From NCBI GenBank assembly GCA_028338895.1, contig JAOLAV010000005.1, positions 1 to 48,677 on the forward strand: 48,677 nt of DNA, in the 5' to 3' direction. The translations under genes were made by a program, and so were the position numbers. The notes below the pieces were generated by a model. The model had not been told where the DNA came from, ran no database searches, and saw only the letters and a list, made by a program, of their open reading frames with translations. This document shows, piece by piece, positions 22,024 through 46,505 of the stretch. The DNA comes from Fidelibacterota bacterium (lineage in GTDB: Bacteria; Fidelibacterota; Marinisomatia; Marinisomatales; UBA1611). The first letter of the stretch is position 1; every line of letters starts with the position of its first letter.

Positions 22024-24153
22024 ATGGCTTTTAAATATCAAAAAAATGAAGATCAAATTGTTACCTTAACAATGGATATGGCAAATAGATCTGTGAATGT
22101 GATTAACAAAGAATATCTATTCTCACTTCAAAGAAATATAAAAAAGATCGAAAACGAAAAAGATTTAAAGGGTGTAATCATTACATCTTCAAAAGCCTCT
22201 TTTTTAGCTGGTGCGGATCTAGAACTCATTTTTAAGCAAGAAGACTCGCAAGAGTGTTTTCAATTGGTCGAAGAGAATAAAGCCGTTATGCGCAGACTCG
22301 AGAAGTTAAGCATTCCTGTCGTTGCTATCATTAACGGGAGCTGTTTGGGTGGTGGTCTGGAATTTGCGTTATGTTGTAATTACCGAGTTACCTTAAACAA
22401 TCCAAAAATAAAATTTGGTTTTCCTGAAGTTACTTTTGGACTTCTTCCTGGCGGTGGTGGCTTAACTCGAGTACCTCGCATGATTGGGATTAAGGACTCT
22501 CTCCCACTATTTTTGCAAGGGAAACAATTTGATCCTTTAAAAGCTCTTGAGATCGGTTTAATAGATCAGATTGCAAATACAAATATTGAAATGTTCAAAA
22601 TTGCGGAAAAATGGATTTTAGAGAATCAATCTTCTAAGCAGCCATGGGATCTAGATGGATTTATCTTTCCAGGAGGTAATACTCAAAACCCAGAAATCAA
22701 TTCTTTCATGAAAGATACTTTAGCAAATACAATAAAAAAAACAGGAGGTAATTATCCGGCACCAGAAGCAATAATAAATGTAATGATTGAAGGTTCACAT
22801 CTAGATTTTGAAACTGCAAGTAAAATAGAGTCTCGTTATTTTGCATCTTTAGCAACCAATAGAACTTCTAAAAATATGATAAACACTTTTTGGTTTCAGA
22901 TGAATAAGATTAATGCGGGTACGAGTCGTCCTCTAAATGTAGAGCCGACCTCTTTATCTAAAATTGGAGTTTTAGGATCAGGACTCATGGGTCATGGGAT
23001 TGCATATGTCTCGGCATTGGCAGGAATGGATGTTGTCATGATCGACTCAAATCAGCAAAATGCAGAAATTGGTTTGTCTAAAATTCGAGATATTTTAGAA
23101 AAGAAAAGTAAAAACAGTAATTTCAATAAAAATCAAGTTGAAAAGACCCTCGCTAAGATAACAGCAACATCAAACTATAAAGATCTGAGCGGTTGTGAAT
23201 TGATTATTGAAGCGGTTTTTGAGGATCAAGATCTAAAAGGAAAAGTTACTAAAAAAGCGGAAAAAGAAATAAATGCTGATGGTTTCTTTGCATCGAATAC
23301 TTCAACAATTCCTATTTCAGAACTAGCCAAAAATTATTCAAGACCTAATAACTTTATTGGCTTACATTTTTTTTCACCAGTTCACAAAATGAAACTTGTT
23401 GAAATTATCAAAGGAAAAAAAACGAGTCCGGAAACTTTAGCAAAAGCTTTTGACTATGTTTTGCAAATTAATAAAATCCCAATCGTCGTCAATGATAGTA
23501 GGGGATTCTATACCACTAGAGTCTTTGAACGGTATACCTGCGAAGGTATGGCTCTTCTAGAAGAAGGCGTTTCGGCTCAGGACATTGAAAGTGCTGGAAG
23601 AAAAGCAGGCTATCCTATCGGGCCACTTGCAATACTAGATGAAATTAATATTTCCCTTGCGGCTCATATCAGGACTCAAAATAAAAAGAGGCAACCATCA
23701 AATAAAGAAGATTTATCCGTTGAGCCATGGGATAGAGTCATGAAATTTATGGTTTCAGATATAAAGCGGACTGGTAGATCTAATTCTGGTGGTTTTTATG
23801 AATATCCGAAAAATAAGAAAAAATATTTATGGCCTCAATTAACAGAACATTTTCCTTTAAGTAAAAATAAAATAAGTGAAATAGATATTATTGATCGTTA
23901 TTACTTTTCTCAGGCGATTGAAAGTATTCTTTGTTACGAAGAAAATGTTATCACTGCAGTTGCCGATGCTAATGTTGGAAGTATCTTAGGATGGGGCTTT
24001 CCTTCTTTTAAAGGTGGTACTTTACAATTTGTAAATGACTATGGTTTGGAACAGTTTAAAAATCGAGCTGAAGAGCTTTCAAAAAGATATGGGAAACGAT
24101 TTACACCTCCAAAAATTTTAATTAAAATGATTCAAGAACAGACTATTTTTTAA
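22024..24153 (+). CDS. fadB: Enoyl-CoA hydratase / 3-hydroxyacyl-CoA dehydrogenase fusion (FadB/FadJ type)
   Basis: A bifunctional beta-oxidation enzyme of 709 residues, normal for FadB/FadJ. The N-terminal crotonase half has the oxyanion-hole motif 'SFLAGADLELI' and both catalytic glutamates, in 'GGGLEFALCCNYRV' and 'GFPEVTFGLLPGGGG'. The C-terminal half has the NAD site 'GVLGSGLMGHGIAYVSALAG' and the catalytic His in 'FIGLHFFSPVHKMKLVEIIKG'. It is the first gene of a plus-strand operon running to 29409, with spacings of 3-29 bp. No thiolase (FadA) follows; instead AtuA and a second hydratase do, suggesting a role in branched-chain or terpenoid acyl-CoA breakdown as much as straight fatty acids (inference). 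Confidence 0.93.
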   Translation: MAFKYQKNEDQIVTLTMDMANRSVNVINKEYLFSLQRNIKKIENEKDLKGVIITSSKASFLAGADLELIFKQEDSQECFQLVEENKAVMRRLEKLSIPVVAIINGSCLGGGLEFALCCNYRVTLNNPKIKFGFPEVTFGLLPGGGGLTRVPRMIGIKDSLPLFLQGKQFDPLKALEIGLIDQIANTNIEMFKIAEKWILENQSSKQPWDLDGFIFPGGNTQNPEINSFMKDTLANTIKKTGGNYPAPEAIINVMIEGSHLDFETASKIESRYFASLATNRTSKNMINTFWFQMNKINAGTSRPLNVEPTSLSKIGVLGSGLMGHGIAYVSALAGMDVVMIDSNQQNAEIGLSKIRDILEKKSKNSNFNKNQVEKTLAKITATSNYKDLSGCELIIEAVFEDQDLKGKVTKKAEKEINADGFFASNTSTIPISELAKNYSRPNNFIGLHFFSPVHKMKLVEIIKGKKTSPETLAKAFDYVLQINKIPIVVNDSRGFYTTRVFERYTCEGMALLEEGVSAQDIESAGRKAGYPIGPLAILDEINISLAAHIRTQNKKRQPSNKEDLSVEPWDRVMKFMVSDIKRTGRSNSGGFYEYPKNKKKYLWPQLTEHFPLSKNKISEIDIIDRYYFSQAIESILCYEENVITAVADANVGSILGWGFPSFKGGTLQFVNDYGLEQFKNRAEELSKRYGKRFTPPKILIKMIQEQTIF

Positions 24154-24164
24154 GAAGCAATATT

Positions 24165-25166
24165 ATGAAAACAAAACTAACTGAACATACGGGTGTAGAA
24201 TATCCAATCATTTGTGGAGCAATGTACCCTTGCTCTAACCCTGAACTAGTTGCTGCAGCTGCAGAAGGTGGCGGTATGGCTATAATGCAACCCGTCTCAC
24301 TAACATATGTGCATGGATGGGATTTGAAGGATGGTATTCGATATATAAAGTCAAAAACATCCAAACCTTTTGGTTTTAATGCTTTAATTGAAAAAGGCAG
24401 TAAGAAATATATGAATCGTATGTCTTCTTGGATCGATATTGCACTTGAAGAAGGTATTCGATTCTTTGTTACTTCTCTTGGCAAACCGGATTGGGTTTGT
24501 GAACGAGTTCATCAAGTAGGAGGACGTGTTTATCATGACGTTACAAACAAACAATGGGCTCGAAAAGGTATCGATGCAGGAATAGATGGTTTAATTTGCG
24601 TCAATAATCGTGCAGGTGGACATCTAGGCCCTTCATCAATGGAAAATTTGTTTGAAGAACTTTCAGGACTTGGTAAACCATTGGTTTGTGCTGGAGGTAT
24701 TGGTAGTAGAATAGAATTAAACAAAGCCATGAACTTGGGTTACGATGGCGTTCAAATGGGAACACGATTTATAGCAACAAATGAATGCAACACACCTGAA
24801 GACTGGAAAGGAGCAATAATTAAAGCTTCTGAAAATGATATTGTGACAACAAAACGTTTTTCAGGAGTTCCGGTATCGGTTATAAAGTCGGATAATTTCA
24901 AGTCAGACAATAATTGGATTATCCGAACACTTTTAAAGAGCCCTTTCAAACATACAACACGAACATTGTTAAATATTGAATCTATTTTATATTTAAAATA
25001 CCTTTCTAAGCAAAAATCATCTGGGAATAAAAATAATAAAAAACAATTTTACTCAGCGGGAAAAAGTGTTGAGACCATCAAGGGTATAGATTCTGCGAGT
25101 ATTTTAATGAGAACATTAGGTGAATCATTGAAAAATATGGATAGAACTATTATCCACAAGGATTAA
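24165..25166 (+). CDS. Nitronate monooxygenase-like (NPD family) FMN protein
   Basis: 333 residues of the 2-nitropropane dioxygenase/nitronate monooxygenase TIM-barrel family. The start 'TEHTGVEYPIICGAMYPCSNPELVAAAAEGG' (shown here in family form across residues 6-36) and the FMN-site motifs 'NNRAGGHLG' and 'VCAGGIGSRIELNKAMNLGYDGVQMGTRF' (residues about 165-205) fit well. Members in acyl-CoA operons are often wrongly named; some relatives are enoyl reductases (FabK type) and others of unknown function. Lying between fadB and atuA suggests a flavin enzyme acting on an acyl-CoA intermediate, but no substrate can be read from sequence. Confidence 0.8.
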   Translation: MKTKLTEHTGVEYPIICGAMYPCSNPELVAAAAEGGGMAIMQPVSLTYVHGWDLKDGIRYIKSKTSKPFGFNALIEKGSKKYMNRMSSWIDIALEEGIRFFVTSLGKPDWVCERVHQVGGRVYHDVTNKQWARKGIDAGIDGLICVNNRAGGHLGPSSMENLFEELSGLGKPLVCAGGIGSRIELNKAMNLGYDGVQMGTRFIATNECNTPEDWKGAIIKASENDIVTTKRFSGVPVSVIKSDNFKSDNNWIIRTLLKSPFKHTTRTLLNIESILYLKYLSKQKSSGNKNNKKQFYSAGKSVETIKGIDSASILMRTLGESLKNMDRTIIHKD

Positions 25167-25171
25167 AGACT

Positions 25172-26968
25172 ATGCCAAACAATAAAAAAGTCAGTATTGG
25201 ATGTGCTTCCGGGTTTTGGGGTGATACTTCAACGGCAGCAAAGCAACTTGTTGATGACAATAACATTGATTATTTAGTATTCGATTTCTTAGCTGAAGTA
25301 ACGATGTCAATCTTGGCGGGAGCTAAAACAAAAAATCCAGACCTAGGATATGCCACTGATTTTGTGACCCAACTTTCACCACTATTAAAAGATATAAATA
25401 AAAATAAAATTAAAGTGATATCCAACGGAGGAGGTATCAACCCTGAGTCCTGCAGATCAGCATTGATAAAAGAGGCTGAAAAAAGTGGACTCAAATTAAA
25501 AATTGCGGTTGTATATGGTGATAACTTACTTGATGACTTAGTCAATTTAAAAAAATCAAATTTAAAAGAAATCGATAGCAATGCTTCTCTTCCTGAAAAA
25601 GTATTAAGTATAAACTCTTATCTTGGCGCGGCTGGAATTGTCTCTGCGCTAGAAGAAGGTGCAGACATTGTAATCACAGGCCGCTGTGTGGATAGTGCAA
25701 TGGTTTTAGGACCTTTAATGTATGAGTTTAATTGGAAATATAATGACTACAACCTTTTAGCAAGTGGAAGCCTCGCTGGACATATTATTGAATGCGGAGC
25801 ACAGTGTACTGGTGGTAACTATACTGATTGGGAAGATATTACAGGATTTGATAATATGGGTTTCCCGATAGTCGAGGTAGAGTCGAATGGTGATTTCACC
25901 GTAACTAAACCAGCTGGGACCGGAGGTTTGGTTAGTTTTGGCACTGTTGGGGAGCAGCTTTTATATGAAATTGGGAACCCCTCTCACTACATTCTCCCAG
26001 ATGTAATATGTGATTTTTCTCAAGTCACAATAAAGGACCTCGGTAATAATTTAGTTCAACTAAAGAATGCAAAAGGACTCCCCCCTACTAACACATACAA
26101 AGTTTCAGCAACCTATATGAATGGATATAATGTGATCGGGAAACTTGTAATTGGAGGTATGAAAGCAAAAAAGAAAGGTGAAATAATAGCAAATGCAATA
26201 ATTAAAAAATCCCTCCGGATTCTTCGCGAGAATAATTTTGCCCCATTTAGCGAAAGTAAGTTTGATCTTATCGGAACAAATTCTATTTATGGATCAAAGG
26301 GAATAAATCCGGATTCAAAAGAAATTGTTCTACGAATAATGGCAAAGCACGAGAAAAAAGAAGCACTTATTTTATTCTCAAAAGAAATTGCACAGGCTGT
26401 TACAGGAATGGCTGCGGGCGTTATGAATTATATGGGCGGGCGCCCAAGAGTATCACGTTCTATTCACTTATTTTCATTTTTACTCAACAAAAATAAAGTT
26501 AGAGTTGGTGTAGACTTTAATGACAAAAAAAAGCTTATATCAATTCACTCAATAAAGGGCCTTCAAGCACCAATAAATAAAAGTAGAGTAATACCTGGTC
26601 TACAAGAACTAACCCTTGATAAGACCGTACCATTGATCCAATTAGCTTATGCTCGAAGTGGAGACAAAGGAAATCATGCGAACATCGGTATTATCGCTAG
26701 ACGCTCCGAATATCTGCCATTTATTCAAAATGCTTTAACAGAAAAAATGGTTGCTCTTTATTTTGAACATGTTTTAAATGGAAAAGTTAAATCATGGGAT
26801 GTTCCTGGAATCTCTGGTTTAAACTTTTTATTGAAAAATTCTTTAGGGGGTGGCGGAATGTCTAGTCTAAATATTGATCCCCAAGGTAAATCTTATGCTC
26901 AGCAAATTCTAGAATATGAGATTCCAGTTACATCATCTATCGCAGATAAATCAAAGTTAGGATTATAA
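25172..26968 (+). CDS. atuA: Acyclic terpene utilisation AtuA family protein
   Basis: 598 residues. The N-terminal AtuA domain (DUF1446, about 1-450) starts 'KVSIGCASGFWGDT' and has 'ISNGGGINPESCR', 'GRCVDSAMVLGPLMYEF' and 'TGRCVD'-type glycine-rich motifs. The C-terminal AtuA-like ferredoxin-fold domain (about 485-590) has 'LAYARSGDKGNHANIGI' and 'LGGGGMSSLNIDPQGKS'. AtuA is genetically required for citronellol/geraniol breakdown in Pseudomonas and occurs near biotin-dependent acyl-CoA carboxylases and hydratases, but its biochemical reaction is not established. Here it sits between an NPD enzyme and an enoyl-CoA hydratase with 3-5 bp gaps. No carboxylase is in the window. Confidence 0.88.
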   Translation: MPNNKKVSIGCASGFWGDTSTAAKQLVDDNNIDYLVFDFLAEVTMSILAGAKTKNPDLGYATDFVTQLSPLLKDINKNKIKVISNGGGINPESCRSALIKEAEKSGLKLKIAVVYGDNLLDDLVNLKKSNLKEIDSNASLPEKVLSINSYLGAAGIVSALEEGADIVITGRCVDSAMVLGPLMYEFNWKYNDYNLLASGSLAGHIIECGAQCTGGNYTDWEDITGFDNMGFPIVEVESNGDFTVTKPAGTGGLVSFGTVGEQLLYEIGNPSHYILPDVICDFSQVTIKDLGNNLVQLKNAKGLPPTNTYKVSATYMNGYNVIGKLVIGGMKAKKKGEIIANAIIKKSLRILRENNFAPFSESKFDLIGTNSIYGSKGINPDSKEIVLRIMAKHEKKEALILFSKEIAQAVTGMAAGVMNYMGGRPRVSRSIHLFSFLLNKNKVRVGVDFNDKKKLISIHSIKGLQAPINKSRVIPGLQELTLDKTVPLIQLAYARSGDKGNHANIGIIARRSEYLPFIQNALTEKMVALYFEHVLNGKVKSWDVPGISGLNFLLKNSLGGGGMSSLNIDPQGKSYAQQILEYEIPVTSSIADKSKLGL

Positions 26969-26971
26969 AAT

Positions 26972-27775
26972 ATGAGCAATATGACATTACCTAAGACTCA
27001 GAACTGTATTCTAGAATTAAAAAATAGCTGGCTAACTATTTGGCTCAACAGACCTGAAAAACGCAATGCCCTTTCGGAAGATCTAATAGAAGAAATAAAA
27101 CGCACTTTAAAGTCCATAAAGGATAATAGGTCTATTCGAGGAATTATTTTTAGAGGAAAAGGAGGTGTTTTTTGTGCTGGAGCAGACTTAAATGATCTAA
27201 AAAAAATTGCTAATTCAGGAAATGAATCTCGGGATTTAGCTTTAAAAATGAGTAAAAAAGTGGGTGAACTTTTTGAATTAATTATTAAAACTCCACAAAT
27301 AACAGTCTCCGTGGTGGAAGGAGCTGCAATGGCTGGAGCTTTTGGAATTGCATGTACAACAGATTTTCTTATCAGTATGTCTAATGCTAAATATGCACTC
27401 ACAGAGACTAAAATAGGCCTCACCCCTGCTCAAATAGCTCCATATGTTTTAAATCGATTTGGTTTTAGACAAGGTCGAAAACTTTTATTAATGGGAACAG
27501 TCTTCGATGGTGATAAAGGATATCAAATGGGGATGGTTGATTATCTTGCTGAAAATGATGAAGAATTAAATAAGCACATAATGACTATTAAGGAAAATGT
27601 TGAAAAATGCTCTCCAAATGCTATTGCAATAACAAAAGAAGTCCTTTTCTCAAATTATAATATTAATGTAACTAAAGCAGCAGAATACTTTTCAGACTGT
27701 GTAATACATGAAGAGGGGCGCGAAGGTTTTTCCTCTTTTTTTGAAAAAAGAAAGCCCGGCTGGATGAATGATTAG
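26972..27775 (+). CDS. Enoyl-CoA hydratase/isomerase (AtuE/methylglutaconyl-CoA hydratase-like)
   Basis: A crotonase-fold enzyme of 267 residues. 'LNRPEKRNALSEDLIEEI', the oxyanion-hole segment 'GKGGVFCAGADLNDL' and 'VVEGAAMAGAFGIACTTDF' are standard. The first catalytic Glu position of enoyl-CoA hydratase ('GGG-x-E' type) is replaced by Gly-Ala-Phe-Gly, while 'ETKIGLTPAQIAPYVL' keeps the second Glu region. This pattern is seen in methylglutaconyl-type hydratases and other crotonases that do not use two glutamates. Coupling to atuA (3 bp) suggests an AtuE-like or leucine-pathway role; the exact substrate is unresolved. Confidence 0.85.
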   Translation: MSNMTLPKTQNCILELKNSWLTIWLNRPEKRNALSEDLIEEIKRTLKSIKDNRSIRGIIFRGKGGVFCAGADLNDLKKIANSGNESRDLALKMSKKVGELFELIIKTPQITVSVVEGAAMAGAFGIACTTDFLISMSNAKYALTETKIGLTPAQIAPYVLNRFGFRQGRKLLLMGTVFDGDKGYQMGMVDYLAENDEELNKHIMTIKENVEKCSPNAIAITKEVLFSNYNINVTKAAEYFSDCVIHEEGREGFSSFFEKRKPGWMND

Positions 27776-27804
27776 CAAATTTAAGATTTACTAGAGAAAA
27801 ATAA

Positions 27805-28794
27805 ATGAGTAAATATTTTAAAGCATTAACCACATCATTAAATAATAATGGAAAATATATAAATAGAATTACCAAAAGAGCGATTGGTGATCTACCCAAT
27901 TATGAGCTATTGGTAAAGGTCAAATACTCATCGTTAAACTATAAAGATGCTTTGTCAGCGACTGGTATAAAAGGGGTTACACGCGATTACCCACACACTC
28001 CAGGTATTGATGCTGCTGGTGTTGTCGAAGAGTCTTCCAATACGTCTTTCCCCGTTGGTACAGCTGTTATTATTACGGGGTATGATCTTGGTATGAATAC
28101 TTCAGGTGGGTTTGGACAGTATATTAGAGTACCTAGTAAGTGGGCTGTTAAATGCCCAGCATCCCTATCTACGAAAGAGGCTATGATGATTGGGACAGCT
28201 GGTTTAACAGCTGGTTTATCAATATCTGCTATCGCTGAAAAATTAAAACTAATGAATCTCAGTGTTATCGTTACTGGTGCAACTGGAGGTGTTGGAAGCA
28301 TTGCGGTCAGAGTATTATCCTCATTGGGTGCTAAAGTCACTGCAGTTACAGGTAAAAAAGAAGGAACAAGTTTTTTAAAAACATTGGGAGCAGAAAAAGT
28401 TATTTTACGAGATGATTTTTTAAATTCTACTAAGTTTCCTTTAAATAAAGCTCTTTATAGTGCAGCCGTTGATGTTGCTGGTGGAAATATTTTATCAGCT
28501 GTTTTAGCAAGCATGAAATATAATAGTATTATTGCTGTATGTGGAAATGTAGCAGGAGCAAAATTTGAAACGAGCGTATTTCCTTTTATACTTAGAAGCA
28601 ATTCATTAGTTGGTATAGATTCAGCAGAAGCATCCATTAAAACAAAAAAAAATATCTGGAATAATTTTGCAAATGCTTGGAGAATTAAAAACATAAAATC
28701 AATGTGTAAAGAAGTGGATTTAGATGATTTATTACCTGAAATTCATAAAATAATTGCTGGAAAACAAACTGGCAGAGTTCTAATAAAATTATAA
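27805..28794 (+). CDS. acuI: YhdH/AcuI-family acryloyl-CoA reductase (MDR superfamily)
   Basis: A 329-residue zinc-independent medium-chain dehydrogenase/reductase. The family signature is clear: 'VKVKYSSLNYKDALSATG' , 'YPHTPGIDAAGVVEES', 'ITGYDLGMNTSGGFGQYIRV', and the NADPH site 'VTGATGGVGSIAVRVLSSLGAKVTAVTGK' (residues about 152-180). AcuI reduces acryloyl-CoA to propionyl-CoA, which detoxifies acrylate from DMSP or 3-hydroxypropionate metabolism in marine bacteria. With the methylmalonyl-CoA mutase at 31647 this would feed propionyl-CoA into central metabolism. The family also holds uncharacterised quinone reductase-like members, so the substrate is probable rather than certain. Confidence 0.8.
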   Translation: MSKYFKALTTSLNNNGKYINRITKRAIGDLPNYELLVKVKYSSLNYKDALSATGIKGVTRDYPHTPGIDAAGVVEESSNTSFPVGTAVIITGYDLGMNTSGGFGQYIRVPSKWAVKCPASLSTKEAMMIGTAGLTAGLSISAIAEKLKLMNLSVIVTGATGGVGSIAVRVLSSLGAKVTAVTGKKEGTSFLKTLGAEKVILRDDFLNSTKFPLNKALYSAAVDVAGGNILSAVLASMKYNSIIAVCGNVAGAKFETSVFPFILRSNSLVGIDSAEASIKTKKNIWNNFANAWRIKNIKSMCKEVDLDDLLPEIHKIIAGKQTGRVLIKL

Positions 28795-28806: not shown

Positions 28807-29409
28807 ATGATTGAGAAAATTAAATACGTTGACCAATCAATTCTTTTATGGGTTCATAATAACCTGTCTAATCCCATTTTAGATAAAGTAATACCATTTC
28901 TAACCGAAGAAGATAATTGGATTTTCCCGATACTATTTCTGATTCTATTTTTAAGTACTATTGGAAAAAAGAAAGGTCGAATTTCTCTTATTTTAATATT
29001 AATAACCCTCGGATTAGCCGATTTTTTTTGTGCTCAATATATAAAACCTTTTATTGAAAGAGTAAGACCTTCACATTTAAATCTAGATGGTCTTCATTTA
29101 CTCGTTCATAAAGGTGGTAAGTGGAGTATGCCTTCAAATCACGCAGCAAATATGTATGGCTTAGCTGTTATTCTCTCTTATTTTTACAATAGATATAAAA
29201 GAACTCTATTTAGTCTTGCCTTTATCATTGCATTTTCAAGAGTATATGTTGGAGTACATTATCCAGGTGATGTAATTGTAGGAGGACTTATTGGATACAC
29301 TCTTGGTTGGATAGTATTAACGGGATGGGCGAAGTTAAAGATAAGAGAACTGAAAAAAGGAAGGACATGGGTTTGGTATGGAACTACCTCACCAATATTT
29401 AAATTTTAA
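28807..29409 (+). CDS. PAP2-family membrane phosphatase
   Basis: 200 residues with several membrane helices. The three phosphatase motifs are complete: 'KPFIERVRP' (K-x6-R-P), 'PSNH' and 'SRVYVGVHYPGD' (S-R-x5-H-x3-D). Bacterial members dephosphorylate undecaprenyl pyrophosphate, phosphatidylglycerol phosphate or phosphatidic acid at the membrane. It follows acuI by 12 bp but is functionally unrelated to the acyl-CoA genes. Its stop overlaps the convergent DUF3467 stop by four bases (29406-29409). Confidence 0.88.
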   Translation: MIEKIKYVDQSILLWVHNNLSNPILDKVIPFLTEEDNWIFPILFLILFLSTIGKKKGRISLILILITLGLADFFCAQYIKPFIERVRPSHLNLDGLHLLVHKGGKWSMPSNHAANMYGLAVILSYFYNRYKRTLFSLAFIIAFSRVYVGVHYPGDVIVGGLIGYTLGWIVLTGWAKLKIRELKKGRTWVWYGTTSPIFKF

Positions 29410-30912: not shown

Positions 30913-31647
30913 ATGTCATTGAATAAAAAATTATTATGGGGTGGTTTAGGCTGGGCTTTTGGTGGCCCGATTGGTGCTATTTTTGGCTACGCGATTGCAT
31001 CTATGGGCGATAATAACAAAGGGCAATGGAGTAGCTCAAATCGTTTTCCAAATAATCAAAACTCAACAAAGCCTGCAGACTTCATAGTCTCAATTCTAGT
31101 CTTATTTGCAAAAGTAATGAAAGCTGATGGTCAATTATTAAAATCTGAATTAGACTATGTTAAACAATTTTTAAAACAGCAGTTTGGAGTACAACAAGCA
31201 CGTGAGTTGATGCTTGTATTGAAAGATATTTTAGATCAAGATTACCCGCTTAAAGATGTTTGTCGACAAATTCAACGTTCTATGGATCATCCAAGCAGAC
31301 TTCAATTAATACATGTATTATTTGGTCTTTCCGCGGCTGATGGGCACATTCATCCAGATGAGGTAAAAATAATTATTACTATATCTAATTATTTAAACAT
31401 AAACCAAAATGATTTTGAATCTATCAAAGCAATGTTTTCAAGTGATAAAGAAGCTCCGTACAAAATTTTAGAGATCAATTCAGATTCAACTAATGAAGAA
31501 TTAAAAAAAGCCTTTAGAAAAATGGCAAATAAATATCACCCAGATAAAGTTGCTCACTTAGGTGTAGAGATGCAAAGACTAGCTGAAGAAAAGTTTAAAT
31601 CGGTTAATGATGCATATCAAAAGATTAAACAAGAACGAGGACTCTAG
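30913..31647 (+). CDS. DjlA-like co-chaperone (TerB-like domain plus J domain)
   Basis: 244 residues. The N-terminus 'WGGLGWAFGGPIGAIFGYAIA' is Gly-rich and hydrophobic (about residues 9-29), like the dimerising membrane segment of DjlA. A TerB/DjlA-like helical domain follows (about 55-165; 'KVMKADGQLLKSELDYV', 'LSAADGHIHPDEV'). A C-terminal J domain (about 178-243) contains the essential His-Pro-Asp in 'NKYHPDKVAHLG'. DjlA recruits DnaK at the inner membrane. The stop overlaps the GTG start of the mutase gene by one base, an odd pairing that hints DnaK help for mutase assembly or simply operon packing. Confidence 0.85.
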   Translation: MSLNKKLLWGGLGWAFGGPIGAIFGYAIASMGDNNKGQWSSSNRFPNNQNSTKPADFIVSILVLFAKVMKADGQLLKSELDYVKQFLKQQFGVQQARELMLVLKDILDQDYPLKDVCRQIQRSMDHPSRLQLIHVLFGLSAADGHIHPDEVKIIITISNYLNINQNDFESIKAMFSSDKEAPYKILEINSDSTNEELKKAFRKMANKYHPDKVAHLGVEMQRLAEEKFKSVNDAYQKIKQERGL

Positions 31648-33131
31648 TGGTAAAAGAAGAACCTGGTAAATATCCATATACTCGCGGTATCTATGAGAAC
31701 ATGTATAAGGATAGATTATGGACAATGCGTCAATATGCGGGTTTTACTACAGCAAAAGAGTCAAATGAACGATTTAAGTTTTTAATAAAAAACGGAGTTA
31801 AAGGACTCTCTGTCGCTTTTGATCTTCCGACTCAAATTGGATACGACTCCGACCATATTATGGCTGAAGGAGAAGTAGGAAAAGTCGGTGTCCCAATTTC
31901 CTGTTTAAATAATATGGAAAACTTATTCAAGGGTATACCTCTTGATAAGGTTTCTACTTCAATGACAATAAATGCTACAGCACCAATACTACTAGCCTTA
32001 CATATTGCATTAGCGGAAAAAAACGGTATAAAGATAAAGGACCTCCAAGGTACTATTCAAAATGATATTTTAAAAGAATATGTCGCCAGAGGAACGTACA
32101 TATATCCTCCTCGCCCCTCACTCCGACTGGTCACCGATGTTTTTGAATTTTGTTCTAGTCACCTACCTAATTGGAATACTATTTCAGTTTCAGGCTATCA
32201 CATAAGAGAAGCAGGAAGCACGGCTTCTCAAGAATTAGGTTTTACGTTCGCTAATGCAATCACATATGTACAATCGGCTATAGATAAGGGCTTAGACCCA
32301 AATATTTTTTGCCAAAGAATCTCATTTTTTTTGAATTCACATAATGGGTTTTTAGAAGAAATCTCAAAATTTCGTGCTGCTAGGCAAGTTTGGGCAAATA
32401 TCATGAAAAATCGTTTTGGTGTAACGGCCAAAAAAGCTCATATGTTTCGTTTTCATACTCAAACCGGTGGCTCTACTCTAACAGCTGCAGAAGTAGACAA
32501 CAATGTTGTAAGAACTACTTTGCAAGCACTCTCAGCTGTTTTAGGAGGGACTCAATCCTTGCATACAAATAGTAAAGACGAAGCTCTCTCCTTACCTTCC
32601 ATTGATGCTGCTAAATTAGCTCTTAGAACACAACAAGTTTTAGCATATGAAAGTGGAATATCAAATCATCCAGATCCTTTTGGAGGTAGTTACCTTATTG
32701 AAGATATGACTCGTAACTATGTGGAAGAAACGATGTCTATCATTGATGAAATTGATAATTTAGGTGGATCTATTTCAGCTATTGAGAGTGGTTATATGGA
32801 GAATCAAATATCAGCAAGTGCTTATGAGTATCAAAAAGATATTGAAAATAATAGTAAAATAATTTTAGGGTTAAATAAATTTAAAAATGAAAACGAGCTA
32901 GATCCTATATTGCATGAGATTGATCCTCTAAAAGTAGAAGAACAAATTTCATCTCTCAAAAAGATAAAGCGAAGTCGAAATAATATCCAAGTTGAACAAC
33001 AACTTCTAAAATTAAAAAAAATTGCTAAGAGTAAAATAAACGTAATGCCTTCTATAATTAAATGTGTTAAAAATGAATGTACATTAGGTGAAATTTCAGA
33101 TACACTCAGAAGTGTTTTTGGTGAATATTAA
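31647..33131 (+). CDS. Methylmalonyl-CoA mutase large subunit, catalytic domain only
   Basis: 494 residues of the B12-dependent acyl-CoA mutase TIM-barrel. 'YPYTRGIYENMYKDRLWTMR' , 'QYAGFTTAKESNERF', 'GLSVAFDLPTQIGYDSDH', 'SGYHIREAGSTASQE', 'FRFHTQTGGSTLTA' and 'AVLGGTQSLHTNSKDEAL' are typical of methylmalonyl-CoA mutase. Two things are missing. There is no C-terminal B12-binding domain, so it needs a separate small subunit encoded elsewhere. The N-terminal 50-70 residues usually preceding 'YPYTRG' are also absent; the GTG start at 31647 overlaps the previous stop. The mutase interconverts (R)-methylmalonyl- and succinyl-CoA. Isobutyryl- or ethylmalonyl-CoA mutase cannot be excluded. Confidence 0.85.
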   Translation: MVKEEPGKYPYTRGIYENMYKDRLWTMRQYAGFTTAKESNERFKFLIKNGVKGLSVAFDLPTQIGYDSDHIMAEGEVGKVGVPISCLNNMENLFKGIPLDKVSTSMTINATAPILLALHIALAEKNGIKIKDLQGTIQNDILKEYVARGTYIYPPRPSLRLVTDVFEFCSSHLPNWNTISVSGYHIREAGSTASQELGFTFANAITYVQSAIDKGLDPNIFCQRISFFLNSHNGFLEEISKFRAARQVWANIMKNRFGVTAKKAHMFRFHTQTGGSTLTAAEVDNNVVRTTLQALSAVLGGTQSLHTNSKDEALSLPSIDAAKLALRTQQVLAYESGISNHPDPFGGSYLIEDMTRNYVEETMSIIDEIDNLGGSISAIESGYMENQISASAYEYQKDIENNSKIILGLNKFKNENELDPILHEIDPLKVEEQISSLKKIKRSRNNIQVEQQLLKLKKIAKSKINVMPSIIKCVKNECTLGEISDTLRSVFGEY

Positions 33132-33147: not shown

Positions 33148-33726
33148 TTGATTAACCTCGCATATCTGATATCACAATTCTTCCATCCGTTAATCGTTGA
33201 GATAACAACATTTACAATTCTTAACCTTACTTTTGCAGGTATTTTCGTAGACTATAAAATACTTTTTATTTCAATACTCCCTGGAATTTCAGTTCTTGCA
33301 ACAGCTATTTATTTGAAAAAGATAGGATCTCTATCTGATTATAATGGCATTATTAGGCAAGAGCGACTTTCTTTAATATCATTTGGTGTCATATATCATG
33401 GAATTGGTTTTTTACTTTTAAGATATTTAGATGCTGCACCCATTATACAAGGTCTCATGTTTTGTTATTCCTTAAATACAGGTTTTGTTTGGATCATAAC
33501 TACAAAATGGAAAATTTCAATTCATTTAATTGGTTTAGGAGGTCCTTTAGCTGCTCTATGGTTAAATGGAGCCCAATATCCAATTATCATGTTTACATTT
33601 ATATTTTTATTGTGTTATTCAAGGTTAATTTTAAAAGCCCATACGCCAATGCAAGTAATTATTGGTTCTCTTTTTTCAATAAGCTTTACTTATTTTCAAC
33701 TTAAATACTTATTTTTATATTTATGA
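33148..33726 (+). CDS. PAP2-like multi-pass membrane protein
   Basis: 192 residues, about six hydrophobic helices, start at TTG 33148. The C-terminal part 'WKISIHLIGLGGPLAALW' and 'YSRLILKAHTPMQVIIGSL' recalls the last two PAP2 motifs (S-R...H-x3), but the Asp and the K-x6-R-P motif are not clear, so it may be a catalytically weakened member. It lies 16 bp after the mutase and overlaps birA by four bases. Confidence 0.6.
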   Translation: MINLAYLISQFFHPLIVEITTFTILNLTFAGIFVDYKILFISILPGISVLATAIYLKKIGSLSDYNGIIRQERLSLISFGVIYHGIGFLLLRYLDAAPIIQGLMFCYSLNTGFVWIITTKWKISIHLIGLGGPLAALWLNGAQYPIIMFTFIFLLCYSRLILKAHTPMQVIIGSLFSISFTYFQLKYLFLYL

Positions 33727-34484
33727 TTTTTACAAATCTCATTCAGGCAAACCTTCGTACAAAAACTTTTGGTCGTCAAATTGAGTATTACCAAAGACTG
33801 GGTTCAACAAATGTTGAGGCTTGGGATTTAATTAAATTGGGTGAAGCTGAGAATGGTATGATTATTATAACCGATAATCAATTTGCTGGTAAAGGTCGCA
33901 ATGCGAACAATTGGTATATGAGCCCGAGTAAAGGTTTAGCTATGACCTTAATAATTCTAGACTCTTTGCCTATTGAAACTGCACTTTTAATCCCGCTAGC
34001 CGCAGGTTTAGCCACTGCAAAAGCTTTAACAAATCGTGGTGTTGATCCAAAACTGAAATGGCCTAATGATATATTCATTAATGAAAAAAAATGTGGTGGA
34101 ATTCTCTGCGAGACTCAAATATCAAATGGAATTGTACAGAAAATGGTAATTGGGTTTGGTCTCAATATTAATGAAAAGGAAGAAGATTTAGACTTAACAA
34201 TTAAAGAAAAATCAACATCTTTATCAATAGAGACAGGATACTCCAACCAACGAGAGTTAATTGCCGCTATTATTACAACATATTTCGAACAGATTTTAGA
34301 TAACACATCTATCGTTCAGGCAGAATGGTCGAACTATTGCTATCATCAAGATAAAGAGATATCCTTTAAATATAATGGTATTGTACAGAGTGGTATCTTT
34401 CGAGGTATTAGCTCCAAGGGAATAGCTAATATAGAAGTCGATAATGAGATCAGAGAGTTTCCATCAATAACTCTAAATAGTTAA
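33723..34484 (+). CDS. birA: Biotin--[biotin carboxyl-carrier protein] ligase
   Basis: 253 residues, lacking the N-terminal DNA-binding domain, so it is a monofunctional ligase that attaches biotin to carboxylase carrier domains. Motifs are 'YQRLGSTNVEAWDLI', the biotinyl-AMP loop 'GKGRNANNWYMSP', 'LKWPNDIFINEKKCGGILCE' and 'GFGLNIN'. The small C-terminal domain ends 'ANIEVDNEIREFPSI'. It overlaps the preceding membrane-protein gene (ATGA). Propionyl- or geranyl-type acyl-CoA carboxylases expected with the mutase and AtuA would be its clients (inference). Confidence 0.93.
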   Translation: MIFTNLIQANLRTKTFGRQIEYYQRLGSTNVEAWDLIKLGEAENGMIIITDNQFAGKGRNANNWYMSPSKGLAMTLIILDSLPIETALLIPLAAGLATAKALTNRGVDPKLKWPNDIFINEKKCGGILCETQISNGIVQKMVIGFGLNINEKEEDLDLTIKEKSTSLSIETGYSNQRELIAAIITTYFEQILDNTSIVQAEWSNYCYHQDKEISFKYNGIVQSGIFRGISSKGIANIEVDNEIREFPSITLNS

Positions 34485-41763: not shown

Positions 41764-42185
41764 TGATTGGAATAGTAATGAGTACATTTAACAATCCTGT
41801 AACAGAGGGCCTACTAAAAGGCTGCATGAAGGCACTAGAAGAAAAAGATATAAGCAAGGATAATATCAAAATTTTCAAAGTTCCTGGTGCATTTGAAATT
41901 CCTGGGTTAACAAATTCATTAATTCATAAAAATGTCTATAATGCCATAATAACTCTTGGATGCATTATACGAGGTGAAACAGATCATTATCAATTTATTT
42001 GTCAAGCCGTTTCTAACGGAATGATGGATATTACTATTAATAGTAATATTCCAATTCTTTTTGGAGTTTTGACCTGTCAAAATAAAGATTTAGCTTTTGC
42101 TCGATCTGGGAATAACAATAAAAATAAAGGCTATGAAGTTGGTCTTGCAGCAGTAGAACAAATAAAGACTATGAACTCTCTTTAG
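41763..42185 (+). CDS. ribH: 6,7-dimethyl-8-ribityllumazine synthase
   Basis: 140 residues, slightly short at the N-terminus. 'FKVPGAFEIPGLTNSLI', 'ITLGCIIRGETDHYQFICQA' (with the catalytic His) and 'PILFGVLTC' identify it. It condenses the two precursors to lumazine and completes the set RibD-RibE-RibBA-RibH in this operon. Its last 17 bases overlap the convergent synthase gene on the minus strand, so the two operons meet tail to tail. Confidence 0.94.
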   Translation: MIGIVMSTFNNPVTEGLLKGCMKALEEKDISKDNIKIFKVPGAFEIPGLTNSLIHKNVYNAIITLGCIIRGETDHYQFICQAVSNGMMDITINSNIPILFGVLTCQNKDLAFARSGNNNKNKGYEVGLAAVEQIKTMNSL

Positions 42186-43298
42186 TATTATTTACTAAGT
42201 TATAGAGCTCATCATCTGACCAGTCATTTTTAAGCTTAAAAGATTTAATCTCTTTTAATAGATTTTCTAATTCAACCTTTGTCAGGTTTAGTTGAAGATT
42301 TTTAAGCTTCTCCTTTAAAATAAATTTTCCTGAATATTTGTTTATTACGAACTTTCTTTTTCTACTAATTATTTCTGGTGAAAAAGGCTCGTAGGTCTTA
42401 GGATTTTTCAATACAGATTTTGCATGTATACCACCCTTATGGGTAAATACATTTTTCCCAATTATTGGTTGGTTAAAATTTGAACTCGAGTTACAGATCT
42501 CATTAAGCATATTTGTTAATTCAGGAATCATTTTTAGCTTCCATGAATGATCTTTTATTTTATAAATATTAACCAATGCAGCAACAACCTCTGCTAAAGG
42601 AGGCAGCCCAGATCTTTCACCTAGTCCATTAATAGATAAATCAATACATTGTGCTCCAGCTTCAATAGCTGAAAGTGAGTTAGCTGTACCCATTCCAAAA
42701 TCATTATGACAATGAACATGTACAGGAATGTCTAATTGCGAGGTTATTCTCTTTATTATATTTTTTATTTTTGTTGGAGTGAGACAACCTACAGTATCGG
42801 CTAAACTATATCTATCAGCACCTGCTTTCTGAGCAAGGATCCCAACTTCGATTAAAAAATCTATTTCGGTTCGGCTTGAATCTTCAGCGGTAAACCTTAA
42901 TTTAAGGCCTTGATCTTTCGCGTACTTAATTGAACTCTCAATTTGATTCAAAGCTTCTTTTTTATTTACGTTATGTTTGTATTTTCGACTTAAAGGCGAT
43001 GTCCCGTAAAAGATACCAATCCATTCGACATCTAAAATTTTGGCATCATTAATATCTGATTTTGTAGCTCGACCATGAACTATTTTTTTGAATTTAGCTC
43101 AAGTGAATTTAGCGCTTCAACTGCTTCATAAATATCTGGCGCAACTGCAGGGTGACCTAGTTCAATAAAATCAACACCAAATAAATCAATTTTCTTGGCA
43201 ATATCTAATTTTTCGTTTAACGTGAAGAGAACTCCTGGTGTTTGTTCGCCTTCTCTTAAAGTTGAATCAAGAATTTCAATTTTTCTATTCTCTAGCAT
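42169..43298 (-). CDS. Homocitrate/isopropylmalate synthase-like enzyme, interrupted by a -1 frameshift at an A run
   Basis: The first frame (43298 down to a stop at 43080-43082) gives '[20 protein letters not shown]' to '[12 protein letters not shown]'. The next frame continues without a gap as '[17 protein letters not shown]', on through '[12 protein letters not shown]', the metal motif '[16 protein letters not shown]', '[18 protein letters not shown]' and '[16 protein letters not shown]'. Joined, it is a full-length HMGL-like acyl-CoA:2-oxoacid synthase of about 375 residues, closest in my memory to homocitrate synthases (NifV/LysS type). The shift lies in a run of seven A on the coding strand (T run 43083-43089). 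It could be a sequencing error, a slippage-decoded gene or a fresh pseudogene. It overlaps the acyltransferase gene by seven bases. Confidence 0.8.
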
Positions 43299-44305
43299 AC
43301 CAACCTTCGTTGAGATTCCTCACCCATTGATATTAAAAAAGGATCTTCTTTTTGCTTCTCAACAAAATCTATTTTTGACCCAATACTTAACCAATGATTC
43401 TCAATCATTATTTGGCCAATCGCTCCTCCTAAAGAATTTCCAGGGCCGAGGAGAATTATATTATCTGGACAAAATTCTTTTAAGGCAACTTCAATCGATG
43501 CGGTAAAATTATATGAGCTTAAGACCTGCTCTCTTAAAGTATAGTCCATAAGATCTTTGGAAGTTGTACTAAAAGGAGTCCATATATATCCTCGACCATC
43601 AATTAAAGGGATACTCGGTTTATTAAAAATTGATTTTGATATTTTTTTAAAGGCTTTTTTAGAAACGTCCTTCATTAGTGGAGTATGAAAAGCAGCATGA
43701 TATGGAATTTGGAATGGAAACTTATCCTCTTTAGGAAGAATATTTAATAGTTTATCTAATGAGTCTTGATTGCCACCAATTACTAAATATCCACCTAGAA
43801 TAATTGAAATAAATGCACCACACTGCTCAATTTTTTCTATGATATTTTTTCTTTTATTAACATCTAAATTCCATTTTTCATTAATCATTGGGTAAATAAT
43901 TTGACCACCAATTATATCATCTTTCATCATTGATCCCATTTTTTGAACAAGATCAAATCCATTTTTTATCTCTAATGCACTACTCAGAGATAATGCTGTA
44001 TACCAGCCCATTGAATTTCCAGTAATTGCTACAATCTCATATTTATTTTGGTCTATTGTAAAAAAGTCTGACAAGCTACAAGCATAGATAAGAGAGGATG
44101 CATTTTCACCGACCATATGGCTCTTTGCTTTAAATAATTCATTATCAAGTTCTGACAAGGTTTTCAACCCTTGTTCTTTCCGACGATTATCCATCCAAGA
44201 AATATGATTTTTTAAAGAAGAATTACCACTTTTTAGATAGCCTGTTGTTTCTCTTGTGTATGTCCCTCTTCCAGGTGCGACAACCACGACTCGCTTTCTA
44301 TTCAT
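43292..44305 (-). CDS. Divergent FabD-like acyltransferase
   Basis: 337 residues with the malonyl-CoA:ACP transacylase fold. The nucleophile is Ser98 in '[15 protein letters not shown]' and the catalytic His is His207 in '[10 protein letters not shown]'. Three usual FabD features are changed: 'PGQG' near the N-terminus is 'PGRG' (11-14), 'GHSLG' is 'GNSMG', and the Arg that holds the malonyl carboxylate (E. coli Arg117) is Met123 in 'LVQKMGSMM'. Loss of that Arg fits an enzyme using a plain acyl group rather than malonyl. It is overlapped by E1 upstream (8 bp) and the synthase downstream (7 bp). It is probably not the housekeeping FabD. Confidence 0.75.
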
Positions 44306-46505
44306 TAAGAAGCTCTATTGAATGATCGATAATTGACTGCTTACTTGGGAGCGTTGCCGTTGCGGAAACACCAAGGGAGATAAAACTATTCTCTGCTGCA
44401 TGTAACCTTATTTTTACATCTGTATTTACTCTTTTGTGAAGCTCATAATAGAGGCCTTCTCCATGACAACCTGTTTTGCGACATTCATCAACGAGTAAAA
44501 CTTTTTTACATCTACTAAGCTCTTTTACTAAGGAATAAAATTTAATATCTGAAAGCCATCTTAGATCAATAACTTTTATTTTCTTTTTAATCTTTTTTTC
44601 AATTTCTTTTTGAGCTTGCAGAGAAAGGTATAAAGCATTTCCGTAAGTAATAATTGTTAATGTATTCCCACTACCATAAACCTTGAACTTCCCAACTGGA
44701 ATCTCTTCTTCAATATTCGGATATAAAAAATTCCATTTACCATCTTTTTCTTCATGTAAATCTTTAATCATATAAAGTGCAATCGGTTCTACAAATATTA
44801 CAACACGTCCATTTTGGCTCGCTTCATTAACCGCTGTTCTTAACATTCTGGCAGCATCTGCTCCATTTGATGGAACAGCTAAAATTAATCCGGGAATATC
44901 TCTGAAAATAGTTAATGAGTTGTCATTGTGAAAATGCCCTCCAAAACCTTTCTGATAGGCTAATCCTGGAATACGCAGAACCATTGGGTTCGTAAATTGA
45001 CCATTAGAAAAAAATGGTAGTGTCGCTGCTTCTCCTCTTATTTGATCTTCAGCATTATGGAAATATGCTAAGAATTGAATCTCAGGTATCGGTATAAACC
45101 CGTTATGAGCAAAACCTATTCCAAAACCAATAATAGACGTTTCATCTAAAGGGCTATCAAATACTCTCCTAGCTCCAAATTGATTATACAAATCGGCTGT
45201 AACATGGTAAACACCCCCTTTTATAGCAACATCTTCTCCAAAAATAAGTGTATTAGGAAACCTAATTAAAAGGTCGAATAGAGCATAATTAATTAATTTG
45301 GCCATATGCTGAGGCTTATTAATTCTTACAAACTCTTTTCCAAATTTCTTTTTTCTAATAAAATCATTAGGATAGGTTGGAAGCAAAGATCTTTCACAAT
45401 TCTCTGTTATTGCAGTCATTACTTCCGGGGCTGTTTTTAGCTTCGGCCTATTTACAGAATAATTAAAAACATGCTCAACTTGGACACGTTTTTTTTCATA
45501 CAAATTCAAGATCTGTTCTTTGTTTAATAAATTATTTTCTATCAGTATGCGAGCTGCATGTAGAAGCGGATCATTCTCCTCCGAAGATTGTATGTTTGAC
45601 AAAGAATTATACCCAGCCTCAACATCAGAACCAGCGTGTCCCATTAAGCGAATTGTCTTCATATGTAAAAAAACTGGTTCTCTTTTAAGTCGACATATTT
45701 TTTCAGCTTCTTGAGCTTTTTTTATCAGATCAATTAAATGTAGTCCATCTGTTTTTATATAGTGTAAGCCATCTCTTTTGGAAAATGTATCTTCAATCCA
45801 ATTCGTTTCTGTTTTTACCGAGATACCTGTTCCATTATCTTCACAAATAAAAATAATTGGAACGTGCCCACCTTTGCCAATCACCCACCGCGCGGTATTT
45901 ATGGCACTTAATGCCGAAGCATGGTTTGAGCTTGCATCTCCAAAACTACATAAAACAATACTACTTGAGTCTAATGTACTTTCTTTTAGGCTTAAATTAG
46001 TTGCACGATCAATCGAAAAAGCGGTACCAACCGCTTTTGGTAAATGGCTTGCGATAGTACTTGTTTGAGGAGGTATATTAAGAAGTTTACTACCTATAAC
46101 TTTATGCCGCCCACCGCTAATAGGATCCTCTGAAGAAGCCATAAAAGATAAAGCCAAATCATAAAGAGGTGTCATCTTGGGAATTTGTTTTGACCTTTCT
46201 ATAAAAAAAGGACCACTCCTATAATGTAAAAAAGCCATATCGGTATAAGGAAAAATATTACCAAAAACTGCATTCCCTTCATGGCCTGAGCTACCAATAG
46301 TGTAAAAACATGCGCCTTCATCTTTTAACAATCTTGCTTTTATATCAACATGCCTACTTGAGACCATTGATTCAAAAATTCTAATTAAATCACTTTTTCC
46401 AAAATTTATATCATTTATAACTAAATTGGATTTAGAGCTTGGTAATTCACCAGATTCAACTTTTACTGTAAAGTTTTTGTCTATAACCTCAGCTCTATTA
46501 AACAT
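44298..46505 (-). CDS. 2-oxoacid dehydrogenase E1, alpha-beta fusion
   Basis: 735 residues joining E1 alpha (about 1-360) and E1 beta (about 395-735) of the branched-chain/pyruvate type. Alpha has 'YRSGPFFIERSKQIP', 'PISGGRHKVIGSK' and the TPP motif 'CSFGDASSNHASALSAINTA' (Ala for the usual second Gly). Beta has 'LIFGEDVAIKGGVYHVTADL', 'RVFDSPLDETSIIGFGIGFA' and 'LLVDECRKTGCHGEGLYYEL'. It decarboxylates a 2-oxo acid and passes the acyl group to an E2 lipoyl protein, not encoded here. The preference for branched-chain 2-oxo acids is a guess from the fusion type. First gene of a coupled trio with the acyltransferase and the synthase. Confidence 0.87.
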   Translation of the reverse strand: MFNRAEVIDKNFTVKVESGELPSSKSNLVINDINFGKSDLIRIFESMVSSRHVDIKARLLKDEGACFYTIGSSGHEGNAVFGNIFPYTDMAFLHYRSGPFFIERSKQIPKMTPLYDLALSFMASSEDPISGGRHKVIGSKLLNIPPQTSTIASHLPKAVGTAFSIDRATNLSLKESTLDSSSIVLCSFGDASSNHASALSAINTARWVIGKGGHVPIIFICEDNGTGISVKTETNWIEDTFSKRDGLHYIKTDGLHLIDLIKKAQEAEKICRLKREPVFLHMKTIRLMGHAGSDVEAGYNSLSNIQSSEENDPLLHAARILIENNLLNKEQILNLYEKKRVQVEHVFNYSVNRPKLKTAPEVMTAITENCERSLLPTYPNDFIRKKKFGKEFVRINKPQHMAKLINYALFDLLIRFPNTLIFGEDVAIKGGVYHVTADLYNQFGARRVFDSPLDETSIIGFGIGFAHNGFIPIPEIQFLAYFHNAEDQIRGEAATLPFFSNGQFTNPMVLRIPGLAYQKGFGGHFHNDNSLTIFRDIPGLILAVPSNGADAARMLRTAVNEASQNGRVVIFVEPIALYMIKDLHEEKDGKWNFLYPNIEEEIPVGKFKVYGSGNTLTIITYGNALYLSLQAQKEIEKKIKKKIKVIDLRWLSDIKFYSLVKELSRCKKVLLVDECRKTGCHGEGLYYELHKRVNTDVKIRLHAAENSFISLGVSATATLPSKQSIIDHSIELLNE

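Follow-up and report, generated by a model that had tools for sequence, protein, structure and literature searches.

The stretch of DNA considered here (the window; 48,677 nucleotides, GenBank assembly GCA_028338895.1, contig JAOLAV010000005.1) is the entire contig C45 of a Fidelibacterota genome (G000; 1.18 Mb, 55% complete) and carries an operon of five genes around atuA. AtuA (DUF1446) occurs widely, and what it does in the breakdown of terpenes has so far only been guessed. We suggest that the locus is an atu/liu-type operon of Neomarinimicrobiota, the gene for the carboxylation step being located elsewhere in the genome, and that AtuA would be a fused citramalate-lyase-like 3-hydroxy-3-alkylglutaryl-CoA lyase replacing LiuE. 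On the strength of sequence comparisons and structure models we regard this reading as probable. The five open reading frames are intact, are all on the plus strand and are tightly packed, with gaps of 3–29 bp; the coordinates given in a preliminary description of the locus were borne out:

22024..24153, plus strand: FadJ/FadB-like fusion of an enoyl-CoA hydratase and a 3-hydroxyacyl-CoA dehydrogenase (ECH+3HCDH), 709 amino acids
24165..25166, plus strand: NMO/FabK-like FMN enzyme (NPD), 333 amino acids; PF03060 111 bits, nearest solved structures FabK/NMO
25172..26968, plus strand: AtuA, 598 amino acids, PF07287 + PF23544; putative 3-hydroxy-3-alkylglutaryl-CoA lyase
25190..26512, plus strand: main part of AtuA (PF07287, residues 7–447), counterpart of citramalate lyase subunit A, 9evf chain A
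26627..26923, plus strand: C-terminal domain of AtuA (PF23544, residues 486–584), counterpart of 9evf chain B
26972..27775, plus strand: AtuE-like enoyl-CoA hydratase (crotonase), 267 amino acids; putative 3-alkylglutaconyl-CoA hydratase and LiuC substitute
27805..28794, plus strand: YhdH/AcuI-family enoyl-CoA reductase, 329 amino acids; TIGR02823 383 bits (cut-off 297)

The first and the last gene had been labeled fadB and acuI. The fusion protein scores higher with the NCBIfam FadJ model than with the FadB model (573 vs 508 bits, both below the cut-off), and the reductase stays below the AcuI equivalog NF051456 (293 bits vs a cut-off of 440) and belongs to the wider YhdH family only. The crotonase had been called atypical for lacking the first Glu motif. 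It does have Gly at the position which we take to be that of the first catalytic Glu, as have all 12 aligned relatives, and the second catalytic Glu (E145 in the window protein) is retained in the same 12 of 12. However, its best solved relative, the AtuE structure 4zu2 (184 bits), also has Gly there; thus the missing Glu is an ordinary AtuE trait, and the candidate of an atypical crotonase was rejected. The PRK05674 equivalog is not reached (158 bits, cut-off 426).

Carboxyltransferases inside and outside the AtuA operon

We mapped the neighborhoods of 32 AtuA loci, the window and 31 regions; they represent each of the 32 genomes in which AtuA occurs, out of 101 relatives searched. As had been described, there is no carboxylase gene among the five operon genes, and the 3 bp between atuA and the hydratase gene leave no space for a carboxylase remnant. 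In 11 of the 32 loci, however, the usual carboxylase does lie inside the operon: in these relatives, which are of the same taxonomic family and order, atuA is immediately followed by the gene of a carboxyltransferase of ∼540 amino acids, and this in turn by the hydratase gene. This protein, AtuC, is closest in the PDB to the beta subunit of geranyl-CoA carboxylase (537 bits vs 460 bits for the beta subunit of methylcrotonyl-CoA carboxylase, MCC). The remaining loci comprise 14 with a full-length AtuA and no carboxyltransferase in between (the window included), six with a short AtuA and a separate partner of ∼109 amino acids, and one (L055) interrupted by the contig end. In 80 named AtuA loci from other genomes, which are GC-rich and whose genes were mapped by tblastn, AtuC lies within the examined flanks in 73 cases and the order A-C-D-E-F is found in 64.

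The presence of biotin-dependent carboxylases elsewhere in the genome had also been proposed as a check, and a carboxyltransferase of the LiuB type is indeed encoded on another contig (G000:C23:49274-50866; 676 bits vs MCC beta, 440 bits vs geranyl-CoA carboxylase beta). The best PDB matches of the LiuB type bear differing names (AccD1, 687 bits; a 'propionyl' beta subunit, 678 bits; MCC beta, 676 bits), and therefore the MCC label rests on the linkage with liuC and liuE. AtuC and LiuB never occur together among 33 genomes compared, and in a wider survey of the phylum one genome (G134) has both. Given that relatives carry AtuC at the same interval and the window genome a LiuB-type protein, we reject the carboxylase-free operon as a defined variant.

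The biotin carboxylases of the AtuA-bearing relatives searched are AccC-sized (about 450–467 amino acids), apart from a fragment at the end of a contig in G031 and an additional protein of 498 amino acids in G034 and G047; a fused biotin-carboxylase subunit was not detected in any of these relatives. In each of three genomes of family f15 tested there is a single biotinyl protein. From the AccC length and the single biotinyl protein it follows that the carboxyltransferases probably share AccC and AccB. In the window genome, at 55% completeness, PF02785 (biotin carboxylase) gave no match. A relative that is 96% complete, G003, encodes AccA, AccD and the LiuB-type protein, and no separate carboxyltransferase of the propionyl-CoA carboxylase (PCC) type.

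Conservation of the five-gene order had been proposed as a check on the operon, and among the 32 mapped loci the full contiguous order was seen in the window only. Contiguous NPD-AtuA-hydratase genes are found in eight of the 32 loci (window counted), an NPD gene in 10 of the 32 and in one of the 80 named loci; FadJ homologues are present within the AtuA operon of many relatives, and the AtuE-like hydratase is kept in 24 loci. In L036, L051, and L059, which come from three relatives, tblastn detected neither FadJ nor NPD in the region that separates atuA from the TonB receptor gene upstream of it, and the set AtuA-hydratase-YhdH-PAP2 remains.

The liu site and HMG-CoA lyase

The LiuB gene is located between a PpiD-like gene and a thioesterase–accA pair, and we examined this site in 38 of 46 LiuB genomes (identity at least 57%). 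Where AtuA is absent, LiuE, the 3-hydroxy-3-methylglutaryl-CoA (HMG-CoA) lyase, adjoins LiuB in 19 of 23 loci, usually as liuC-liuE-liuB; the four loci without LiuE are those of G214, of G016, where the site lies at a contig edge, and of G001 and G131, which share a genus with AtuA genomes and are 60% and 70% complete. On the contrary, liuB stands alone in all 15 LiuB genomes that have AtuA, with LiuE or LiuC at the site in none of them. The gap between PpiD and LiuB measures 32–123 bp in these 15 genomes and 979–1766 bp in the 13 loci without AtuA where LiuE is present and the gap could be measured. With kinship ignored, Fisher's exact test of LiuE vs AtuA at this site gives p = 5e-7.

Two genomes with AtuC inside the AtuA operon, G015 and G046, have no carboxyltransferase at the liu site, nor does one adjoin accA in G094. 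In families f3 and f7 it is the liu site itself that holds the carboxyltransferase, the short AtuA, its partner, and the hydratase (L033, L040). In G057 the short AtuA is decayed (L176, G057:C76:30724-30915; a match of 63 residues with a stop) beside carboxyltransferase and hydratase, and at a different locus the same genome encodes a full-length AtuA next to FadJ.

The exclusion extends over the phylum. In a survey of 245 genomes, with the canonical HMG-CoA lyase defined by more than 330 bits to NF004283, AtuA is found in 74 and the canonical lyase in 25; no genome has both, 7.6 being expected (hypergeometric 7e-5, uncorrected for kinship). Moreover, 24 of 29 high-quality AtuA genomes lack any match of at least 178 bits to the HMG-CoA lyase model. 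Weaker paralogues of the lyase occur at other loci in 16 of the 74 AtuA genomes, and in 15 of these 16 (the exception is G068) the Cys of the catalytic loop is replaced by Ser or Thr; in AtuA-less genomes the Cys is retained in seven of nine paralogues inspected. As a separate observation, the Ser/Thr-type paralogues (L228-L238, L185-L187, L204, L205) are nearly confined to AtuA genomes. LiuB-like carboxyltransferases of 45–52% identity and at least 450 bits occur in 43 genomes of the survey, 35 of them with AtuA.

The fold of AtuA

AtuA is not a member of the HMG-CoA lyase family NF004283; it matches PF07287 and PF23544 only and no NCBIfam model, and would thus be at most a functional analogue of that lyase. 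The match to PF07287 (482 bits, gathering score 22.8) covers almost the full model length. The C-terminal PF23544 (AtuA_ferredoxin, 96 bits) is fused as in full-length AtuA of the Pseudomonas type, and its counterpart in other families is the separate protein of ∼109 amino acids beside the short AtuA (L040:6703-7029). The window protein aligns over its full length to AtuA of the 80 named loci with 50–62% identity, and to Pseudomonas AtuA with 50–54%.

The structure model of AtuA (mean pLDDT 85.9) has a single outstanding match, 9evf chain A (Foldseek E 4e-22). In the VIA comparison this chain aligns with 415 residues (model residues 3–451) at Z 32.1 and a root mean square deviation (rmsd) of 3.4, the next row having Z 10.6; rows other than the named fold matches cover residues 317–431 only. 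A profile match to subunit A of 9evf was obtained as well (E 5e-7). When the C-terminal domain was modeled alone (pLDDT 90.5), its best match was 9evf chain B (Z 10.5, rmsd 2.8, 97 residues; next Z 7.2). The entry is entitled 'Citramalate lyase - ADP - pyruvate complex' and its chain A is named 'Acyclic terpene utilization AtuA family protein | Citramalate lyase, subunit A'. AtuA therefore resembles a fusion of the two citramalate lyase subunits CmlA and CmlB (9evf, 9erq), which, as known here from the PDB titles, are separate, act on a free dicarboxylic acid, and are only 14–16% identical.

Citramalate lyase yields acetate and pyruvate, and it is alike the corresponding step of the Atu pathway in that acetate is cut off beside a tertiary alcohol. 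According to PMC4847356, the pathway requires acetate to be removed from 3-hydroxy-3-isohexenylglutaryl-CoA, and there as well as in PMC9973270 AtuA is speculated to be the acetate lyase. The preliminary description was right in that the role of AtuA is not settled in print, since a review (PMC4097962) gives the same step to LiuE. No publication on AtuA replacing LiuE was found in a literature search that did not include most subscription journals.

Proposed pathway and alternative explanations

We propose that the LiuB-type carboxyltransferase, together with shared AccC/AccB, would carboxylate the 3-methyl group of the substrate, giving a 3-alkylglutaconyl-CoA. The AtuE-like hydratase would convert it into a 3-hydroxy-3-alkylglutaryl-CoA, which would be HMG-CoA itself if the source were leucine or isovalerate, and AtuA would then cut the C–C bond in place of LiuE. 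These three roles rest on the comparisons described above, whereas for FadJ, NPD, and the YhdH-type reductase we infer that they handle the remainder of the branched chain: the FadJ/FadB-like fusion may carry out the beta-oxidation of the chain released, and the NPD enzyme probably an acyl-CoA double-bond redox step. The reaction of AtuA is probably acetate-releasing and, since 9evf contains ADP, might depend on a nucleotide.

With the atuABCDEFGH system of Pseudomonas the operon shares AtuA and AtuE homologues and the degradation of acyl-CoA, and the operons of relatives also AtuC and acyl-CoA-dehydrogenase genes; unlike that system, the window operon has no atuC, atuF, and atuD, and FadJ, NPD, and YhdH are added, as is MaoC in relatives. 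The leucine/isovalerate pathway liuRABCDE has the LiuB-type carboxyltransferase and the proposed order of reactions in common with it, but the AtuA genomes lack liuC and liuE beside liuB. LiuE (NF004283) would catalyze the same step as AtuA, which comes from an unrelated family.

A more specific version of this scheme, which we put forward as tentative and consider somewhat doubtful, is that the fused CmlA–CmlB enzyme AtuA has taken the place of HMG-CoA lyase more than once in the catabolism of leucine and isoprenoids. By the opposite split it would convert HMG-CoA and longer 3-hydroxy-3-alkylglutaryl-CoAs into 3-oxoacyl-CoA and acetate (or activated acetate), and the liuC-liuE half would be dispensable. 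If acetoacetyl-CoA were the product, acetoacetate activation should be missing where AtuA is present. Pairs of 3-oxoacid CoA-transferase were found in four of 27 AtuA-less LiuE genomes and in none of 32 AtuA genomes, and acetoacetate-CoA ligase in 24 of the 27 and in 19 of the 32, the window genome included (G001 is in neither group). The predicted loss is thus not supported.

Several observations weigh against our proposal. The ligase persists in those 19 genomes as though acetoacetate were still produced, which counts against acetate and 3-oxoacyl-CoA as the products from short substrates. AtuA is only 14% identical to 9evf chain A, and a common fold does not establish a common reaction. Pseudomonas has LiuE and AtuA together, and it is LiuE that the review credits with this reaction (PMC4097962). 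The distribution of AtuA on the LiuB tree requires four changes, with three AtuA-bearing clades and three independent pairs; with so few independent events a tree-based test is without power. Furthermore, G214 and G035 carry LiuB and neither AtuA nor a canonical HMG-CoA lyase. The eight other genomes with a LiuB-like carboxyltransferase (G154, G176, G183, G184, G186-G189) have no AtuA and no strong HMG-CoA lyase match (187 bits in G176), which points to another lyase or another substrate there.

Alternatively, AtuA might be an accessory of carboxylation and hydration or might catalyze another reaction, and the cleavage might be left to the Ser-type HMG-CoA lyase paralogue or to another lyase. 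LiuB functions without AtuA where liuC-liuE-liuB is intact, so that AtuA is not an obligate carboxylase partner, even though atuA usually adjoins a carboxyltransferase gene. The paralogue, whose Ser form tracks AtuA as if it belonged to the same pathway, is retained in 16 of the 74 AtuA genomes, but is missing from 24 of the 29 of high quality. CitE-type lyases exceed the Pfam cut-off in only six of 20 AtuA genomes tested, and the fold of AtuA itself indicates a lyase. This alternative appears unlikely; in its favor, no candidate lyase was seen in the carboxyltransferase genomes G183, G184, and G186-G189.

That branched or terpenoid acyl-CoA is degraded independently of a carboxylase and ends up as propionyl-CoA, as the preliminary description had it, is very improbable. 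Such a route would account for the operon without a carboxylase gene, for the YhdH-type reductase and for a methylmalonyl-CoA mutase gene 2.9 kb downstream, by virtue of which propionyl-CoA may still be formed. Yet AtuC occupies the same interval in relatives and LiuB is encoded in the window genome, the reductase fails the AcuI cut-off, and G003 has no PCC-type carboxyltransferase. In addition, the hydratase is AtuE-like, and the known AtuE substrate bears the added carboxyl group. It is hardly credible that AtuA simply cleaves citramalate or a similar free hydroxy acid here too, as an ordinary citramalate lyase, and came to lie next to the hydratase by chance when the operon was assembled: citramalate lyase is the best fold match of both halves and enterobacterial DUF1446 genes adjoin methylaspartate ammonia-lyase (PMC4682846), but 14% identity to 9evf chain A stands against more than 50% to AtuA of terpene-degrading Pseudomonas, and the presence of AtuA follows the loss of liuC and liuE.

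Downstream of the operon the window contains:

28807..29409, plus strand: PAP2-family phosphatase, 12 bp after the reductase gene; adjoins the operon in 12 loci and is probably co-transcribed with it, given the gap of 12 bp
31647-33131, plus strand: methylmalonyl-CoA mutase, 494 amino acids, catalytic domain only; no match to a B12-binding domain; several relatives also have the gene downstream of their operon
33723-34484, plus strand: resembles biotin-protein ligase (BirA) by eye, judged without a family search
42169-42951, minus strand: isopropylmalate/homocitrate-synthase homologue in which roughly the first 115 model residues are missing (matches begin at model position 110–125), possibly a truncated or frameshifted gene
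44298-46505, minus strand: 2-oxoacid dehydrogenase with E1 alpha and beta fused, which might supply branched acyl-CoA

Coming back to AtuA as a replacement of LiuE, three independent lines, namely gene loss at the same site, phylum-wide exclusion and the citramalate lyase fold of both halves, converge on one testable reaction. If our proposal holds true, an abundant marine phylum would possess a second, unrelated lyase in leucine and isoprenoid breakdown, and an annotation that seeks LiuE, or that labels such operons as carboxylase-free, would be wrong.

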